53,968 bases of DNA from Alphaproteobacteria bacterium (lineage in GTDB: Bacteria > Pseudomonadota > Alphaproteobacteria > JAOXRX01). A program made the translations under genes and the position numbers. The stretch is taken from the NCBI GenBank assembly GCA_025800285.1, contig JAOXRX010000063.1:1-53968 (forward strand). Reading direction: 5' to 3'. Below, piece after piece: positions 287 to 46,388 of this stretch (its first letter is position 1; each line of letters begins with the position of its first letter). The notes below the pieces were generated by a model. The model was not told the origin of the DNA. It was given only the letters and a program-made list of their open reading frames with translations, and ran no database searches.

Positions 287-901
287 TTAGTTTTTGTTTG
301 CTTTATATAAAGAACCAACATTATTATTAGTATAATAATCTTTAAGTTCTTTTTTTGTATATTCATACTTTATTTTAGAGAGATATCTCCCCAAAACTTT
401 TAGAATAAAATTAAACCTTTTGTCCATATCCCTTAATTGTCTTTTAGTATCTTTTACAAAATCATCACTTCTATCTTCTTCTTTTTGCCTAACTATCATA
501 AATACTTTTTCTAAAACAGATTCTTCTATATATAACATTGATATATGATAAGATATAGGAGACCCTAAATACAACGCTATATCATCACTATTATATTCTT
601 TTCTCATTGTCAATAAAATATCTTTATACTCTTCAAAACTACTCACTTCTAAAGCAAACTTCATTAAAGAGTCTCCTTTTTTATTTAAAGCTTTCCTTAT
701 ATTTAAATAATTATAATATAACTTTTTAATATCAGGCTCTAATTCAAATGCTAATTCCATCTGTTTTTTACCTATATGCTCCTTTTTCCATGTATCTAAT
801 GCTTTATAAGCTATATATAAAAGAGCAACAGTAGCTACAGATATTATACCATTAAAAAACAAATCAAAAAATATATTAAAATCTATTCCAAATAACTTCA
901 T
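287..901 (-). CDS. Hypothetical membrane-anchored protein, third gene of the OLD-nuclease operon
   Basis: I do not recognise this 204-residue protein. Residues about 8-33 form one hydrophobic segment, and the rest is a charged, mostly helical domain that probably faces the cytoplasm. It follows the OLD-like nuclease gene by 50 bp on the same strand, so the two are probably co-transcribed. An inner-membrane partner beside an ATPase-nuclease is a common layout in phage-defence operons, but no catalytic motif is visible and the role is inference. It is the last gene before the left end of the element. Its start is ATG, preceded by GGAGAG about 9 nt upstream. Confidence 0.7.
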   Translation of the reverse strand: MKLFGIDFNIFFDLFFNGIISVATVALLYIAYKALDTWKKEHIGKKQMELAFELEPDIKKLYYNYLNIRKALNKKGDSLMKFALEVSSFEEYKDILLTMRKEYNSDDIALYLGSPISYHISMLYIEESVLEKVFMIVRQKEEDRSDDFVKDTKRQLRDMDKRFNFILKVLGRYLSKIKYEYTKKELKDYYTNNNVGSLYKANKN

Positions 902-951
902 ATTATATTAACTCTCCTTATTTATTGCTAAAAGTTTTAAATAATTTCATC

Positions 952-2757
952 TTACAAACCATTAGCTTTTTTAATGCCTTTGATTATTGCAGAAAAATCT
1001 TTTTTTAGATTTAAATGTTTTTCAAGATTTTTTACATTATAACTCTTCATTTTTATTATTTTTTTAGCAAAGTCTGTTTTGTTAAAGGTTTTAACCTTTT
1101 TCTGCTTTTTATATATCTCTTCAAATCTTTCATATTGACCTAATTTAACTTTGTCACTATTGAAAAATTCTTGAATTACAACATCTGGTATATAGTTCTC
1201 TACCTCTCTACCTCTAGTTATAAAATGATGTATTTTTTTATCTTGCAGATTATCTAATTCAGATTTTATTCTTCGAACATTTGTTTTTAATCTTTTCCTT
1301 GAAGAGTCTTTATCACTATCCATAAAAACACAGAAATTTTTATTTATCTTTAATATATCAATAAAATTATCTAAAGTATTCTTATCTAAATCGTTTATAC
1401 CTAATGATGACAAACAAGATCCTGCTGTATACAAAAATTGATAATGTATATTCTCTCTCAGTTTTTTATCTTCTTCTTTTCTCGAATTAAATAACTCTAT
1501 CCACTTGTTGATATAGATTCTATCTGAAGGTCCTTCACACCATATAATATAATTAGACTGCAATATATCACTAGCTTTAACACCCATATCGTCAAGCAAA
1601 TTTACTCTTTTGTCCCAAGTATCAACTTTTTTAACTGTTGAAAACCCATTTTTATTTTCTACATTTAAAATTTGACTATCTTCATCATCTTTAAAAATAT
1701 CTATTGGATAATGAGAGTGTGTAGTCAAAAACACATGACAACCATTTTCTTTAACGAAGTTTTTTATATGATTTAATAATCTTTTTTCTATTGCTGGATG
1801 TAAATTATTCTCTAATTCCTCAAAACAATAAATATATTGCCATACTGGTTGATTTTCTAACATAGGTATTAAATGCAAATTTGCCAATACTAAAAATATA
1901 GTTTTGAGACCAGAGCCACTATCAGATAAAGATATAGGTTTATCTTTACCATCTTCTTGTAGAAAAATTTGCACTCCTCCATTTTTCTTACCATCGGGTA
2001 AAAGGTGCTGTCCTTCTTTAATTTTTATTTTATTAAACTTTATATCTGGACCGACTATGTCATTAAGAGTATTCAAAAAATCATTTTCTAAAAACCTTTC
2101 TTTATCCGTATGACCTGTATTTCTCAATAAAGAATCTATAAGAGTCGTAAAATCTTTTCCATTAGATTGGAAATTAACCTTTGTTGAATTTGCTCCACTA
2201 TTTTCAACGCCAATATCTCTTTCAGCTGTAACCTCCCTTATATGGTATTTGCTGAGTAAGTAAGGGTTTTTAATCTTAGATACAGCATATTGTTGAACTT
2301 TTTCTATTTTCAAATCATTAGAAACATGAATGGGAATACTTAAATTATTAGGTCTATCAATTAAGTTTTTTGATACAAGAAACCATTTACCTAATATGTA
2401 TTGCCATAATAAATTATAATCACTCTGTTGACTAGTAGCACCTCTAATACCTTTAGATTGAGCGATTCTATTACTATTTTTAGTATTAGATAATATGTGT
2501 GAGGCACTAAGGACGAAGCCTATTTGAAAATCGAATTCAAATTTATCAAAAGTTATATCAGGTTTTAATTTTCTGTATTCTTTAATAATCTCAATTAACC
2601 TAGATTTTCCACTGTTGTTTTTCCCGATAATAATGTTTATGGGTTTAATGTTTTCAAACCCCTGATAATCTTGCTCCTTTACAAAGCACTTATACCCCTT
2701 AACTTTTAAATAACTTAATGGGAATTCAGGGATAGCTTCTTTTTTCTCTTCACTCAT
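952..2757 (-). CDS. OLD-family ATP-dependent endonuclease (AAA ATPase plus TOPRIM)
   Basis: The 601-residue protein is an ABC-type ATPase fused to a TOPRIM nuclease domain. Walker A is GKNNSGKS (45-52), the signature is SDSGSG (278-283), Walker B is CFEELE (311-316) and the switch histidine lies in TTHSH (345-349). The TOPRIM part shows E408 in WCEGPSD, DSD at 480-482 and E518/E520. OLD proteins cut DNA and act in phage exclusion and related defence, alone or with partner genes. Here the partners are unknown: a 315-residue protein encoded 21 bp upstream and a membrane protein encoded downstream. No UvrD-type helicase (Gabija) or reverse transcriptase (retron) is present. The fused ATPase-TOPRIM layout could also be compared with PARIS-type systems. 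Confidence 0.88.
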   Translation of the reverse strand: MSEEKKEAIPEFPLSYLKVKGYKCFVKEQDYQGFENIKPINIIIGKNNSGKSRLIEIIKEYRKLKPDITFDKFEFDFQIGFVLSASHILSNTKNSNRIAQSKGIRGATSQQSDYNLLWQYILGKWFLVSKNLIDRPNNLSIPIHVSNDLKIEKVQQYAVSKIKNPYLLSKYHIREVTAERDIGVENSGANSTKVNFQSNGKDFTTLIDSLLRNTGHTDKERFLENDFLNTLNDIVGPDIKFNKIKIKEGQHLLPDGKKNGGVQIFLQEDGKDKPISLSDSGSGLKTIFLVLANLHLIPMLENQPVWQYIYCFEELENNLHPAIEKRLLNHIKNFVKENGCHVFLTTHSHYPIDIFKDDEDSQILNVENKNGFSTVKKVDTWDKRVNLLDDMGVKASDILQSNYIIWCEGPSDRIYINKWIELFNSRKEEDKKLRENIHYQFLYTAGSCLSSLGINDLDKNTLDNFIDILKINKNFCVFMDSDKDSSRKRLKTNVRRIKSELDNLQDKKIHHFITRGREVENYIPDVVIQEFFNSDKVKLGQYERFEEIYKKQKKVKTFNKTDFAKKIIKMKSYNVKNLEKHLNLKKDFSAIIKGIKKANGL

Positions 2758-2778
2758 AATTTAACCTCTTATTATAAT

Positions 2779-3726
2779 TTATCTTTCCAATTTCCAGATC
2801 TCATCCATAGGAAGAGATTCTGCTTCTGACCACTTAGTATTTTCAGGCAAATCAGAAGGTATTTTTGAAAACACAACATCATTAAGAGAGTAAACCTTTT
2901 TTATATTTATCTCTTTCTTCTTTATCTCTCCATTCACAACTTCCTTTTTATATTCAGTCAAAATAGTTATAACATCATCCTTATTACTATTTCTTAGTGG
3001 AGCATTACCTGTTAAAAATTTATTTTTAAAGTCATCATCTTTTAATAAAGCTTTAATCCCCTCTTTTGTAACAATATCTTCCAACTCCCAAACAAGATCT
3101 TTATTTACATCAACAGGCTTTATAATCACAGCTTTTCTTATTATATATTCAGGATCCAAGCCTTTAATCTGATCTTCAGATATATGTTTTACAAAATCAT
3201 CTCTAGATATTTTCTTATTTGTTTTTGTTTCATATTCTATAGAATCTAGGTTAGAATTTTTAAGCTCATTTAAGTAAAAATTAGATTTTAATTTGATAAT
3301 TTTATCCATAACACCTACATTATTATCTATTCTTAACAAATCCCCATTCTCTTTTGTAAACACGCTAAACCAGAGATCGTTTAATAACTCTCCTATTTTC
3401 TCTCCTGCAATATAGCTGCTTAGTTCAATTCCTGTTAAACCTTTTACAAATCCTTTAGAAAAATCTACTATTTCTCCTTGCAAGACCCCCAATACAAAGG
3501 CAGAACCCACCAACATCTTTATTTTATGGCAGCCCACCTCAGTTGGACAAACTAACAACTCATATTCTAACTTGTTTTTAAAAATTCTTTTATTTATTTC
3601 ATTTAAAATTAAATTTGATGCCTTTATAGCACTTACATGATCTAAAGCATTTAAATCATTACTATCATCTTTCAAATTAAAATGTATATATATGTATTGT
3701 AAATCCTCTAAATTACCATTTGTCAT
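2779..3726 (-). CDS. Hypothetical protein, first gene of the OLD-nuclease operon
   Basis: The family of this 315-residue protein is not recognised. The N-terminal 70 residues are soluble in character. Residues about 74-115 form a Gly-rich hydrophobic stretch (GSAFVLGVLQG, KGLTGIEL) that could be one or two membrane segments or a buried helix pair. The C-terminal half is charged and helical. It is the first gene after the promoter at 3762-3790 and precedes the nuclease by 21 bp. The start ATG follows GAGGGGAAA about 7 nt upstream. From position it may be a sensor, toxin or regulator of the nuclease; this is inference only. Confidence 0.72.
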   Translation of the reverse strand: MTNGNLEDLQYIYIHFNLKDDSNDLNALDHVSAIKASNLILNEINKRIFKNKLEYELLVCPTEVGCHKIKMLVGSAFVLGVLQGEIVDFSKGFVKGLTGIELSSYIAGEKIGELLNDLWFSVFTKENGDLLRIDNNVGVMDKIIKLKSNFYLNELKNSNLDSIEYETKTNKKISRDDFVKHISEDQIKGLDPEYIIRKAVIIKPVDVNKDLVWELEDIVTKEGIKALLKDDDFKNKFLTGNAPLRNSNKDDVITILTEYKKEVVNGEIKKKEINIKKVYSLNDVVFSKIPSDLPENTKWSEAESLPMDEIWKLER

Positions 3727-3761
3727 TCATGTTTCCCCTCTTTAATGAAACCTCATAAGTA

Positions 3762-3790
3762 TTTATATAATATAAAAAAAATATATTCAA
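3762..3790 (-). promoter_or_regulatory. Promoter of the OLD-nuclease operon
   Basis: On the minus strand TTGAAT (3785-3790) and TATAAA (3762-3767) are separated by 17 bp. Transcription would begin about 35 bp before the ATG at 3726. The -35 box lies within the palindrome shared with the divergent promoter. Confidence 0.6.
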
Positions 3791-3803
3791 GAAATAACTT
3801 GAA
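3786..3803. promoter_or_regulatory. Palindrome spanning two divergent -35 boxes, possible operator
   Basis: TTCAAG (3786-3791) and CTTGAA (3798-3803) form perfect six-base inverted arms around AAATAA. Each arm contains most of one -35 hexamer. A dimeric repressor or activator bound here could control both transcripts. Alternatively, the symmetry simply follows from two back-to-back promoters. No regulator gene is adjacent. Confidence 0.45.
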
Positions 3804-3827
3804 ATAATATCAATAATGTGGAATAAT
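3799..3827 (+). promoter_or_regulatory. Promoter for the structured RNA and the PD-(D/E)XK nuclease
   Basis: TTGAAA (3799-3804) and AATAAT (3822-3827) are separated by 17 bp. The predicted start near 3834 is exactly where the run of stable hairpins begins. Confidence 0.55.
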
Positions 3828-3833
3828 CTTTTT

Positions 3834-4043
3834 GAGCTTTAAAAGGTGTTTAGAGCTTGGTGTTTTTGCGGATACCTCTACAACCAATTAGTTATAATCC
3901 CTATTATAGCTATTTGTAATGATTTACTAGGGACTGGAATGTAATGAACATGTCCAGTCTATTTATAGATAAAAACATTACGGCTGTGTTGTAGCAGTGT
4001 CGCAAAATTCCAGTCCACCTTTTAAAAAGGTGGCTGATTTTTT
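3834..4043 (+). ncRNA. Candidate structured RNA or attenuating leader, about 210 nt
   Basis: There is no credible ORF here, but there is strong nested pairing. Hairpin A pairs 3835-3843 with 3849-3857 (9 bp). Helix P1 pairs TTTTGCG (3864-3870) with CGCAAAA (4001-4007). Helix P2 pairs CTACAAC (3878-3884) with GTTGTAG (3988-3994). Inside P2, hairpin B pairs 3889-3898 with 3903-3912 (10 bp, CCCT loop), and hairpin C pairs 3932-3942 with 3949-3959 (11 bp, one bulge). An intrinsic terminator follows. GGACTGGAAT (3931-3940) is also fully complementary to ATTCCAGTCC (4007-4016), an alternative fold that would break P1, hairpin C and the base of the terminator. It could be a free RNA partnered with a nuclease, or a leader that attenuates the downstream gene. 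No known RNA family is recognised. Confidence 0.6.
4015..4043 (+). terminator. Intrinsic terminator just before the PD-(D/E)XK nuclease gene
   Basis: CCACCTT (4015-4021) pairs with AAGGTGG (4027-4033), followed closely by six T residues (4038-4043). It lies 18 bp before the start codon of the nuclease gene, so most transcripts from the upstream promoter should end before the gene unless termination is prevented. Confidence 0.75.
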
Positions 4044-4061
4044 ATAAACACTGGTAATAAA

Positions 4062-5351
4062 ATGAATGATGAAAAAATAATAAAAGAGCAATTAAGGCAA
4101 GATTTTGATATAACTCTTAAAAAGTTAAAAGAGTGCGATATAAGTAATGAAGAACAATTATATTTAGAAGAGTGTATATCTAAATTTATAGAGAAATTCA
4201 TTGATAACTTAAAAGATTCTAAGAAAAGAAAAAGAATATATAAAAACTATAAGGTTAGTTCTAGGAAATATATAATACACAATCCAAAGGCTTATCAGCA
4301 AATATGCTTTGGATTTAATGTCGCCTACTATCACATAAACAAATTTTTAAATAAAAATCATGAAGATGAGTGTATAGAAAATCCAAATTTAAAAAGAAGT
4401 GAGGATATTATGGAAAATGTTAATTTTATAGAAACAGTTAGAGAAAGAGATATGGACTTGTTAATTATGGAGGAGATATTCTCTTCCGAAGAGTTTAGGA
4501 CATTTCTCTTATCAAAATTTGATTTATCATCTGACAATGTAAATTTCTGGGGTTGCTGGCACTCTGTTATGGATAATGAACTTGGGGAAACTGATGTTTT
4601 AGTCGGATTTAAGACTTTAGAGAGCAAAAGAATAGTTATAATGCTAGAAAACAAGATAGATGTATCATTCCAACCAATGCAACCAGAGAGATATGTATTC
4701 AGAGGAGAAAAAGGCATTAAAGATGGTTTATGGGATGAATTTCATTTATGTATAACTGCTCCAGATTTATATATTCAAAATGTAGATAGAACAAAATTTC
4801 CAATATCTTTATCTTATGAAGAAATTATAGATACTCTAAAAGGATATTCAGCGAATGATGATAGAATTTCATTCAAAATCAATATGCTTGAAACTGCTAT
4901 TGATAAGAAGAAGAGAGGATACTCATTTATAACAAATACTACAGTAAGCGAATTTTGGCAAAGATACTATGATTTGATTGAAGAAGAATATCCAAAACTA
5001 GCAAATAAAAGACCTGCAAATAAGCCGACTCAATCTGATTGGTATTATTTCAGAAAGCCAATTATGGAGCTTCCTTTTGCTATTGTTCATAAATGGGAGT
5101 TCGGGTTCATAGATTTGCAAATCAGAGGATATGCTGATAAATTTAAAGCCGTTGAAGAGATTGTAACTTTACCTAATGATGCAATGCTAGTTAAAACGGG
5201 TAAGTCTTTAAACATTCGAAAGAGATGCTCTAGCATTAACAAGCTAGAATCTTTTGATGAACAGAAAGATTTAGTTAAAGAAGCATTAGATAAGGTTGAA
5301 GAGCTAGTTCTAATATACAAAGAATATAGAGATTGCATATTAGCGGTATAG
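4062..5351 (+). CDS. PD-(D/E)XK nuclease-superfamily protein
   Basis: The 429-residue protein has the catalytic pattern of a PD-(D/E)XK nuclease: GETD with D178, then ENKID with E196 and K198, followed by QPERY. It resembles the PDDEXK_4 group, often found in phage-defence or uncharacterised mobile genes. Residues 1-116 are a separate charged helical region with no recognised domain. An internal ATG at 4410 (M117) has a good ribosome site, GAGGA, so a 313-residue form starting at the nuclease domain is possible. The ATG at 4062 has only a weak ribosome site. The gene is alone on its strand within the element, behind the structured RNA and its terminator. Substrate unknown; defence is inferred from context. 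Confidence 0.75.
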   Translation: MNDEKIIKEQLRQDFDITLKKLKECDISNEEQLYLEECISKFIEKFIDNLKDSKKRKRIYKNYKVSSRKYIIHNPKAYQQICFGFNVAYYHINKFLNKNHEDECIENPNLKRSEDIMENVNFIETVRERDMDLLIMEEIFSSEEFRTFLLSKFDLSSDNVNFWGCWHSVMDNELGETDVLVGFKTLESKRIVIMLENKIDVSFQPMQPERYVFRGEKGIKDGLWDEFHLCITAPDLYIQNVDRTKFPISLSYEEIIDTLKGYSANDDRISFKINMLETAIDKKKRGYSFITNTTVSEFWQRYYDLIEEEYPKLANKRPANKPTQSDWYYFRKPIMELPFAIVHKWEFGFIDLQIRGYADKFKAVEEIVTLPNDAMLVKTGKSLNIRKRCSSINKLESFDEQKDLVKEALDKVEELVLIYKEYRDCILAV

Positions 5352-5976: not shown

Positions 5977-6549
5977 TTAGCTAAATAAATCACTAAAAGT
6001 CATTATATTTTCTGATCTAATTTTTTCACCATAAATACCAAGTTCTTTCATACAATACTCTATTGCACCTTCTTTATTATAAACCTTAGAAACAACTATA
6101 TCTTTATTGTAATTACGATTATCAAATCTTGCTTTAAATTGACCATATTTTTTAGTCCCTATATCGCATTTAATATATCTAGAGACACCTCGAAAGACTG
6201 TAACAATTTGTTGATAAGAATAATCCACAGCATTAAACAATATATGAAAGTGCAAAGCCCCAGTTTTACCTTGCTCAATGACACCAAAGATATCTACTTC
6301 TTTTCTTGCAAATCTTTTCTGCCAGTGCCTGCCCATCAAACTTCTAAAAAACCTTTTCAATATATTATCAGCTTCTTTTGCCATAGAGATTCTATCCTTT
6401 GTCACATAGTGAGGTTTGATAGTTATAAACATAATCTCTCCATTACTATTAAGCTTATCACTTAACCAATTAAATACAACTGCAAAATCTTTATTAGAAC
6501 TTGCCGTTAACCTATTGTATTTATTGGATTTATTTAAAGATTTAGCCAT
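5977..6549 (-). CDS. HUH endonuclease, rolling-circle replication initiator-like
   Basis: The 190-residue protein has the HUH metal-binding motif H100-F101-H102 within GALHFHILFN. A downstream catalytic tyrosine candidate is Y165 in EYCMKEL, followed by K168, as in single-tyrosine Rep proteins. These enzymes nick one strand and stay bound to the 5' end to start rolling-circle replication. Here the protein probably replicates or mobilises the excised element. It lies 35 bp downstream of the AlpA-like gene on the same strand. It could instead act as a small relaxase, but no mobilisation partners are seen. Confidence 0.8.
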   Translation of the reverse strand: MAKSLNKSNKYNRLTASSNKDFAVVFNWLSDKLNSNGEIMFITIKPHYVTKDRISMAKEADNILKRFFRSLMGRHWQKRFARKEVDIFGVIEQGKTGALHFHILFNAVDYSYQQIVTVFRGVSRYIKCDIGTKKYGQFKARFDNRNYNKDIVVSKVYNKEGAIEYCMKELGIYGEKIRSENIMTFSDLFS

Positions 6550-7759: not shown

Positions 7760-8821
7760 CTAATCTCCTCTAAATATCTTTTTATTCATATTTTCAACTT
7801 CAAGTTTTCTTTTCTGATCACACAAGTGAGCATATCTCTTTACCATCTGCAAAGTCTTATGCCCTAAAATTTCTGCTAACTGCCCTAAAGTAACACCATT
7901 ATTAAGTAAATAGCTTGCTGCAGTGTGCCTTAAATCGTGAAAACGGAAATTAGTTATCCCAGATTCTTTGATAGCTTTTCTCCAACTTCTAGTTATATCA
8001 AATGGCTTAGAATCATCTTGACTCGGGAAAATCCACTTATCACTTGTTCTGTTCTCATATAATTCTCTCATTACTTCTTCTGACTTATAAACAATAGGAA
8101 TACTCCTCACTTCTCCGTTCTTGGTATTATACAAAATAGCTCTATTATTACCTAAATCTAAATCATCCCATTTAAGAGAAAGTATTTCCATCTTCCTCGC
8201 CCCAGTTGATAAAGCCACAACAACAGCAGGATATAAATATGGGTTTTTAGCTTTTTTACAAGCATCTAAAAGACTTTTTCTTTCATTATCATCAAGAAAT
8301 CTTATTCTTGGAGGAGCCTCTTTCATTTTTTTCACCCTCAACATAGGGTTGACCTCTAGCCATTCCCATTCATTAACAGCATAGCCATAAGCAGAGCTAA
8401 GAGCCGTTAAAAACTTATTTACTGTAGAACCTGATCTTAAAGTTCCTTTTCTTGTTTTAACCTTAGCTATTTTATCTCTCATTTCAACCAATACAGAAAG
8501 AGTAGCTTCATGTAAAGTATACATACCGATAAGACCTTTAATTTCATTGAGATAAAAAGTCCAATCATATTGAACTTTAGGCTTGTTAGGCAATACATTT
8601 TCAATATACCTGTCTATCATTTCTGCAACAGTATGTTCTTTAGCTTTAATCTGAGAAAGATACTTACCATCCCTAATTTCATTTTCTACCTTAGAAGCCC
8701 ATGTTTTAGCCTTTGTAAGCGAAGATAATGTAGCAGATTGCGTAGGGAAGTTTTTTACCCTTACAAGCACTCTATAGGAGACCTTACCTGATTTTGATGT
8801 TCTTTTAGTTATGTTTGGCAT
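7760..8821 (-). CDS. int: Tyrosine recombinase, element integrase
   Basis: The 353-residue protein has the phage-integrase layout: an N-terminal arm-binding region (about 1-60), a SAM-like core-binding domain (about 60-155) and a catalytic domain (about 170-345). Catalytic residues are R209 (STGARKMEI), K234, H295 and R298 (HDLRHT), H321 (GHKT) and nucleophile Y330 (KRYAHL). It should recombine the 49-bp tRNA-Asp attachment sites to insert and excise the element. It ends 2 bp before the 275-residue gene and starts 2 bp after the stop of a 48-residue peptide gene. The whole operon may be read from the promoter at 10238-10266. Confidence 0.95.
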   Translation of the reverse strand: MPNITKRTSKSGKVSYRVLVRVKNFPTQSATLSSLTKAKTWASKVENEIRDGKYLSQIKAKEHTVAEMIDRYIENVLPNKPKVQYDWTFYLNEIKGLIGMYTLHEATLSVLVEMRDKIAKVKTRKGTLRSGSTVNKFLTALSSAYGYAVNEWEWLEVNPMLRVKKMKEAPPRIRFLDDNERKSLLDACKKAKNPYLYPAVVVALSTGARKMEILSLKWDDLDLGNNRAILYNTKNGEVRSIPIVYKSEEVMRELYENRTSDKWIFPSQDDSKPFDITRSWRKAIKESGITNFRFHDLRHTAASYLLNNGVTLGQLAEILGHKTLQMVKRYAHLCDQKRKLEVENMNKKIFRGD

Positions 8822-8823
8822 AT

Positions 8824-8970
8824 TTATTTCTTTACTGGCGCAACTGGTTGTTTTTTGGGTGCTGGCGTTGATTTTGGAGAAGGTTTGATTGCAGTCTTTG
8901 GCGCAACTGGTTGTTTTTTTGGCTCGTGATTTTTTATAGATGTTGTATAATGTTTTACTTCTTTATTCAT
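8824..8970 (-). CDS. Small Pro/Lys-rich peptide with a repeated KKQPVAP motif
   Basis: This 48-residue peptide is rich in Pro and Lys and contains KKQPVAP twice, at about 18-24 and 39-45, with TPAPK-type sequence between. There is no signal peptide or membrane segment. It sits between a membrane protein gene and the integrase gene, with 20 and 2 bp spacing. A ribosome site, GGAAAG, lies 5 nt before the ATG. The tight spacing argues for real translation, perhaps as a coupled leader for the integrase. Function unknown. Confidence 0.6.
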   Translation of the reverse strand: MNKEVKHYTTSIKNHEPKKQPVAPKTAIKPSPKSTPAPKKQPVAPVKK

Positions 8971-10551: not shown

Positions 10552-10600
10552 TAATGGCGCGAGAGACGGGACTCGAACCCGCGACCTCCTGCGTGACAGG
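10552..10600. repeat. Right attachment repeat, within tRNA-Asp
   Basis: Identical over 49 bp to 92-140. This copy is inside the intact tRNA-Asp gene and covers its 3' half including the anticodon loop, the usual target of tyrosine integrases. Confidence 0.93.
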
Positions 10601-10632
10601 CAGGCATTCTAAACCAACTGAACTACTCCCGC
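10555..10632 (-). tRNA. tRNA-Asp (anticodon GTC)
   Basis: The minus-strand sequence folds as a tRNA. The acceptor stem GCGGGAG/CTCTCGC has one G-U pair, the anticodon stem is CCTGC/GCAGG around CTGTCAC, the T-arm is GCGGGTTCGAGTCCCGT, and CCA is encoded (10555-10557). It closely resembles bacterial tRNA-Asp. The element is inserted at its 3' half and restores the sequence. Confidence 0.95.
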
Positions 10633-45074: not shown

Positions 45075-45104
45075 AAAAAGATGTCCCTTTTGGGACATCT
45101 TTTT
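45075..45104 (+). terminator. Intrinsic terminator of tRNA-Arg
   Basis: AAAAAGATGTCCC (45075-45087) pairs with GGGACATCTTTTT (45092-45104). Confidence 0.85.
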
Positions 45105-45206
45105 GTATAATATATCTAGAAGATTTGAACCTGACAAAGAGATTTAATAATAAATAAATTTGATTATTTCTATTACACTCAAATATATTTATATATAATT
45201 TTGTCA

Positions 45207-45726: not shown

Positions 45727-46092
45727 TTATTTCCATAAAACTTCTCTTCTTCCTTTTGTATTAGCTTTAAAATCTTCCTTTGCATCTTTATAAACTTCTT
45801 TTATTGATTTTCCTTTATTTATGACTTGATCTAACCCTTCTGATACTTCTCTGTATAAACTTAATATATGAGACATAACATATCCATCAAAACCTCTTTC
45901 AGTTGCTTGATGATTAGCTCTTGTATGATAAAATTTATCATTCTGTCTTTTCTCTTTTAACTCTAACATATTTCTCATAAAATCCCCCATAGCATTATCC
46001 CATGTTGCGATTTCTTTGTTAAAATCTTCCATAAGCTGATTAAAAATAATCCTAAAATCTTTTTTAATTCCATCTTCATATATTTTTATCAT
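45727..46092 (-). CDS. Hypothetical protein with YHxxANxxAxxRG-like motif
   Basis: The 121-residue charged helical protein contains FYHTRANHQATERGFDGY and later REVSEGLDQV and KANTKGRREV. The order H-x3-N-x2-A-x2-RG followed by an RE and GR ending recalls small proteins found at the ends of phage and polymorphic-toxin loci, where Cys usually replaces the second His. Firm family assignment is not possible by eye. It lies 2 bp after the 97-residue gene. Confidence 0.6.
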   Translation of the reverse strand: MIKIYEDGIKKDFRIIFNQLMEDFNKEIATWDNAMGDFMRNMLELKEKRQNDKFYHTRANHQATERGFDGYVMSHILSLYREVSEGLDQVINKGKSIKEVYKDAKEDFKANTKGRREVLWK

Positions 46093-46094
46093 AT

Positions 46095-46388
46095 CTATAC
46101 CTCCAAGTTCTCTAATTCTTTTTTCAATTGCTCTATCTTGTTTTTCATATCCATTACAGCAGCACCTAAATCTTCTAAAGTTGCAATATCATGTTCACAG
46201 TTTTCGCATATTTCATGGTCAACTGGTTCAAGCCAACAATCACAATTAGGATGTATAGGTAAATCAGGAGCTTCTTTTAAAGTTTTAAATTCTTTCCCAT
46301 TATGAGCCATGCATTTATCACAGATGTTATCTCCTTCTGCATGATATATCCACTTTTTAATTTTATTTTCTTTTTCATTATTTGACAT
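46095..46388 (-). CDS. Small zinc-ribbon-like protein resembling a phage Mu gpF C-terminus
   Basis: In this 97-residue protein, residues about 20-55 hold CDKCMAHNGKEF and later PIHPNCDCWLEPV. This is the Cys/His pattern seen at the C-terminus of phage minor head proteins, followed by a second CxxC (CENCEHD) and a coiled coil (about 70-97). A metal site is likely. It may be a phage fragment kept for a new use, since the flanking genes are intact. Confidence 0.65.
   Translation of the reverse strand: MSNNEKENKIKKWIYHAEGDNICDKCMAHNGKEFKTLKEAPDLPIHPNCDCWLEPVDHEICENCEHDIATLEDLGAAVMDMKNKIEQLKKELENLEV

Follow-up and report, generated by a model that had tools for sequence, protein, structure and literature searches.

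A structured RNA beside an unusual PD-(D/E)XK nuclease gene in an alphaproteobacterial mobile element

The Mobile Element and Its Genes

The window referred to here is the whole stretch of DNA that was analysed, 53,968 nt of contig JAOXRX010000063.1 from an Alphaproteobacteria bacterium (JAOXRX01; assembly GCA_025800285.1). It contains a 10.5-kb element inserted in tRNA-Asp and bounded by identical 46-bp direct repeats. One copy of this attachment repeat, at 95-140, represents the 3' part of tRNA-Asp and forms one end of the element, while the other, at 10555-10600, falls within the tRNA-Asp that was the integration target and forms the other end (10555-10632, reverse strand). A tyrosine integrase is encoded at 7760-8821 on the reverse strand (Phage_integrase, 8e-35), and together with the tRNA direct repeats it confirms the mobile element that a first-pass annotation of the sequence had proposed. 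The element also encodes an HUH-type Rep (5977-6549, reverse strand) which is REP_ORF2-G2P-like, carries the motif HFHILFNA, and matches with an E value of 1e-5, just below the curated cut-off. The cargo is made up of a structured RNA at 3834-4043, a nuclease ORF at 4062-5351, and a divergent three-gene operon. Directly upstream of the integrase gene there is a 24-bp direct repeat (96%) of TGGCGCAACTGGTTGTTTTTTGGG, at window positions 8836-8922.

The divergent operon (287-3726) encodes a 315-aa PDC-S42-like protein, an AAA/OLD-like ATPase, and a 204-aa protein, and is a candidate defence cassette. The 315-aa protein (2779-3726, reverse strand) is without a Pfam family and has a weak PADLOC match to PDC-S42. 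Second in the operon is the gene for the AAA ATPase, which is OLD/AriA/GajA-like (952-2757, reverse strand). A homologue of the 315-aa protein is found in another genome (G236) at approximately 40% identity, with no ATPase homologue near it. The RNA had originally been placed between two divergent nuclease genes. The nearest divergent gene, 2779-3726, is no recognisable nuclease, but the OLD-like gene does lie behind it.

Elsewhere in the window, a 121-aa ORF at 45727-46388 has a Pfam serum amyloid A match above the cut-off. It adjoins a weak Phage_Mu_F-like ORF downstream of a tRNA-Arg, and this stretch is perhaps a phage remnant. The strong 16-bp hairpin at 45075-45107 is the intrinsic terminator of the tRNA-Arg.

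The Downstream Nuclease

The ORF at 4062-5351 (forward strand) encodes a 429-aa protein that no Pfam family matches. Residues D178, E196, and K198 are invariant in seven homologues and make up a conserved D...ExK core, and by these catalytic residues the protein is predicted to be a PD-(D/E)XK nuclease; the structure model is poor. Relatives on rhizobial and Vibrio plasmids are approximately 30-35% identical over residues 116-420 with the catalytic residues conserved. Others are present in genomes of the class, where the alignment starts at about residue 116, and in viral contigs and genome contigs the relatives occur as a single locus.

The family-typical part begins near M117 and is preceded by a helical N-terminal extension of about 116 aa (4062-4409, forward strand) that is without homologues and has a start codon with a poor ribosome site. 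On reading the sequence, the ATG at 4062 is preceded by a GGT match only, whereas the ATG at 4410, which encodes M117, is preceded by GTGAGG. Because the better ribosome site is at the second ATG, two forms of the protein are possible. The N-terminal domain has no family, homologue, or structural match, and its four-helix model is of low confidence (pLDDT 60). Two weak genome matches to this domain are spurious, and reading it as HEPN from R68-x4-H73 before the last helix is unsupported.

Architecture of the RNA

The forward strand of 3834-4043 folds with an MFE of -68.9 kcal/mol compared with a shuffle mean of -42.8, giving a z of -6.28, and none of 200 shuffles is as good. The opposite strand reaches a z of -6.19, and the same region folded as single-stranded DNA a z of -8.4. 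Since both strands and single-stranded DNA all fold well, fold energy alone fixes neither the strand nor the molecule and is no proof of an RNA. The forward strand is chosen because of a terminator and a promoter-like site with an extended -10 that lies 7 nt before the first hairpin. Leaving aside tRNAs, tRNA-adjoining terminators, and the contig start, the region is one of the most highly structured in the window, and no other non-coding part of the element is as structured.

Structurally, the RNA is made up of a 5' hairpin, an interrupted stem around two further hairpins, and the hairpin of the 3' terminator, all on the forward strand. The 5' hairpin has 10 bp (3834-3858; pair probability 0.999). 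It is followed by a basal stem at 3864-4007 of 7+4+7+2 bp, in which 3864-3886 pairs with 3985-4007 and the pair 3867-4004 has a probability of 0.95. This stem encloses inner hairpin 1, of 10 bp (3889-3912), and inner hairpin 2 (3914-3983), which consists of an outer stem of 8+5 bp and an apical hairpin of 8+4 bp at 3931-3960. Pair probabilities are at least 0.95 for the 5' hairpin, the basal stem, and the terminator. Both of the nested 7-bp helices noticed in the first-pass annotation (3864-3870 with 4001-4007, and 3878-3884 with 3988-3994) are present in the MFE structure, joined by a further 4 bp (3872-3875 with 3997-4000), and the 10-bp hairpin at 3889-3912 is as described there. The 5' hairpin and the apical hairpin had also been seen, but with 9 and 11 bp instead of the 10 and 8+4 bp found here, and the outer 8+5-bp stem (3914-3926 with 3966-3983) had been missed. 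The loop UCCCUA (3898-3903) could pair with its complement UAGGGA (3928-3933) in a possible pseudoknot; 6-nt complements of this kind are common in shuffles, and this one is not significant. In agreement with its description as non-coding, no long reading frame passes through the RNA, the longest one wholly inside it being 32 aa on the forward strand.

Upstream of the first hairpin is the promoter-like site TTGAAA-17-AATAAT with an extended -10 TG (3799-3827, forward strand), which places the predicted +1 near 3834. The promoter attributed to the RNA is therefore a fair match, at 10/12, but the region has no excess of such matches over shuffles, with two found against 4.5 expected. The intrinsic terminator stands up well, with one found against 0.2 expected. 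Its stem, CAG-CCACCTTT/AAAGGTGG-CTG, is followed by TTTTTT (4011-4043, forward strand) and has a pair probability of 0.9999.

Alternative Pairings at the Terminator

The RNA contains two perfect stems of at least 10 bp that are alternatives to this fold, where shuffles have a mean of 0.03 and a maximum of 1. Pairing A, which was previously overlooked, joins 3838-3848 with 4016-4026 over 11 bp (forward strand), closing the RNA 5' to 3' and taking up the 5' arm of the terminator. As the terminator is itself palindromic, part of this complementarity is not independent information. The core stays intact in the pairing A fold, at -60.8 kcal/mol compared with -68.9, which makes the terminator fold 8 kcal/mol better. 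Pairing A gives the MFE structure only for transcripts with 3' ends at 4026-4030; beyond this the terminator wins. Pairing B, between 3931-3940 and 4007-4016 (10 bp, forward strand), is the one on which the RNA had been suggested to switch between two folds. The complementarity is exact and a 6-bp terminator stem would be left, but the fold, at -53.3 kcal/mol, is 15.6 kcal/mol worse, requires the core to open, and has a negligible probability of about 1e-11. Pairing A is the better antiterminator candidate of the two, and a switch through it is possible, with help from a ligand or protein needed.

Searches for Related RNAs

Searching with blastn detects no match to the RNA, whether in 58 genomes from the class or in phages, plasmids, or E. 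coli. Neither exact patterns nor a single-sequence covariance model, R1, returns an RNA homologue from viral contigs, and across 385 genomes of the class and 299 of the phylum (overlapping samples) R1 matches only itself; distant relatives may escape a model of this kind. No Rfam 15 family is matched, the best score being 16.5 bits (E 0.55) against a cut-off of 65.9. Within the window, nothing longer than 12-13 nt is complementary or identical to the RNA elsewhere, and no antisense target was found. One viral contig, brought in by a chance pattern match, has a 210-nt region with a z of -7.5 before a 190-aa ORF (L058:4720-4954).

A Similar Fold Upstream of a Distant Nuclease

A comparable architecture is present at one other locus, L036 in genome G318, upstream of a nuclease that is 27-29% identical to that of the window. 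Here the 210 nt before the nuclease (L036:5037-5246) fold with a z of -11.64 on the strand of the nuclease gene, compared with -7.30 for the opposite strand, and no other sampled region reaches the first of these values. The fold begins with a 5' hairpin of 8 bp, continues with a stem (4+10+9 bp) that encloses two hairpins, and ends in a 3' hairpin of 17 bp. The ATG follows about 30 nt past the last of these, a gap similar to that of the window RNA. By sequence reading, TTGACA (5005-5010) and CACTAT (5028-5033) are separated by 17 nt, and 7 nt lie between the -10 and the start of the first hairpin, as they do in the window. CACTAT matches at only 3/6 positions, and a promoter scan did not flag the site. 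An integrase gene adjoins the L036 nuclease. The RNA stretch is single copy in its own genome, which rules out a repeated element.

Both RNAs have the abstract shape [][[][]][], which is seen in 2.2-2.8% of shuffles. The large and small inner hairpins are in swapped order at L036, no U-tract follows the 3' hairpin, and model R1 does not match, so that the two share shape and not sequence. The missing U-tract indicates that the common feature is structure and not attenuation. In a tree, the two nucleases do not group as sisters, and no comparable RNA lies upstream of about 20 other relatives of the nuclease. The upstream regions of other relatives at L068, L069, L073, L075, and L026 have moderate z values and were rejected as different in architecture on reading. 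Strong folds turn up by themselves in about one upstream region in 100, so that a single case among some 20 relatives would not be very surprising, and kinship between the two RNAs is unproven.

Comparison With Known RNA-Protein Systems

The closest parallels in layout are AbiF and the type III TA systems. The AbiF/RCd22 system of C. difficile, also on a mobile element, has an ncRNA, a terminator, read-through, and a protein that binds the RNA (PMC12373285). Like AbiF, the locus has a promoter-like site, a structured RNA, an intrinsic terminator, and a downstream gene in that order within a mobile element. It differs in that the abiF RNA motif RF03085 is absent among Rfam matches up to E 10, that the nuclease, with its PD-(D/E)XK core, does not match Abi_2 at any E value up to 10, and that the RNA is about 210 nt long compared with 132 nt. 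In type III TA systems (ToxIN, CptIN, TenpIN), RNA, terminator, and toxin are arranged behind one promoter (PMC5086642). The window likewise has an RNA, an intrinsic terminator, and a gene in one direction, but there are no tandem repeats at 3700-4450, and the nuclease has no ToxN, CptN, or TenpN match in Pfam or PADLOC. The antitoxin RNA of these systems is pseudoknotted, and in the window RNA a pseudoknot is possible through the UCCCUA/UAGGGA complement, which is of a kind not above chance. On the features tested, the locus is a member of neither group.

Other comparisons are more distant. Retron ncRNAs are also structured RNAs beside a defence-type effector, and the 5' and 3' ends of the window RNA are complementary over 11 nt; the earlier statement that this is no standard retron holds, as there is no reverse transcriptase among the ten element proteins scanned and no Rfam match. 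Riboswitch-type attenuators share a 5' leader, a terminator, and an alternative pairing, but none of the aptamer classes in Rfam 15 is found and the alternative fold is strongly disfavoured. The plasmid relatives of the nuclease lack the N-terminal 116 aa, and most of them have no structured RNA upstream.

Interpretation

The region 3834-4043 is a real, unclassified structured RNA beside an unusual nuclease in a mobile element. Fold, terminator, and layout support the proposal that the RNA is tied to the PD-(D/E)XK gene downstream. The leading explanation, to which we would give a probability of roughly 0.45, is that the two form one module that works like type III TA or AbiF systems. In such a module, transcription would start near 3834 at the putative promoter, and most transcripts would stop at the terminator at 4043, leaving a folded RNA of about 210 nt to accumulate. 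A minority would read through to make the nuclease, so that the RNA would exceed the enzyme, and by direct contact the RNA may restrain the nuclease or serve as its cofactor. The module would probably belong to the anti-phage or anti-competitor cargo of the element. In its favour, the terminator ends 19 nt before the nuclease ORF, the only downstream gene, and the region is the second most structured of 102 sampled upstream regions. The lack of a match to known riboswitch or leader families and the like-shaped fold before the nuclease at L036 weigh on the same side. Against it, one other of the 102 also has a z of -6 or lower, which means that strong folds before genes arise by themselves. It also counts against a module that the searches returned no sequence homologue of the RNA, and hence no covariation, and that PD-(D/E)XK enzymes are usually DNases while the RNA-inhibited toxins known so far are RNases.

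Alternatively, the RNA may be a cis-acting leader that senses a ligand, a protein, or a stalled polymerase and frees the nuclease gene by exchanging the terminator for pairing A, with no action in trans. The terminator directly before the ORF is as expected of a leader, as are the two complements, both unusually long, with which the terminator side (4007-4026) could pair instead, and the way in which pairing A spares the core and is transiently the MFE structure. Despite this, the equilibrium lies heavily with the terminator, no known riboswitch class is matched, and the like-shaped L036 RNA, with no U-tract, argues that attenuation is not common to both and tilts the balance towards an RNA with a function of its own. 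A leader acting only in cis is somewhat unlikely, though the next most probable reading. The choice is not absolute, since in AbiF a single RNA attenuates transcription through its terminator and also binds the protein (PMC12373285), and so the trans-acting RNA and the sensing leader offered as alternatives in the first-pass annotation are not mutually exclusive.

Two further explanations are less probable. The region could be a single-stranded DNA structure, for example a single-strand origin or an origin of replication for the element, which encodes an HUH-type Rep, in which case promoter and terminator would be incidental. It folds strongly as single-stranded DNA and on both strands, is the most structured non-coding stretch of an element that encodes a G2P-like Rep, but it lies about 2 kb from rep, is bounded exactly by the promoter-like site and terminator in register with the downstream gene, and has at L036 a counterpart that folds clearly better on the nuclease strand. 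Such an origin seems improbable, and there is a similarly slim chance that the RNA is a stand-alone small RNA (decoy, antisense, or phage-interference) beside the nuclease by accident. A promoter-like site and terminator of its own would suit a stand-alone RNA, and defence genes adjoin one another for general reasons; the limit of 12-13 nt on complementary or identical stretches elsewhere in the window speaks against it, as does the comparable RNA that precedes a relative of the nuclease.

A module of RNA and nuclease could also be of a new kind. Here a dedicated ncRNA of about 200 nt (5' hairpin, stem around two hairpins, 3' hairpin) would inhibit, arm, or guide a DNA-type PD-(D/E)XK nuclease, and it would recur in unrelated mobile elements with its shape kept and its sequence changed. 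We hold this broader claim to be unlikely as matters stand. Most of the RNA-controlled toxins described to date are RNases, and the DNA nucleases that work with an RNA partner come mainly from CRISPR systems and transposons. If true, a dedicated ncRNA with a PD-(D/E)XK nuclease outside the CRISPR and transposon groups would represent a partner of a new kind, and the layout of the locus, together with the look-alike before a distant relative, makes the pairing of RNA and nuclease directly testable.
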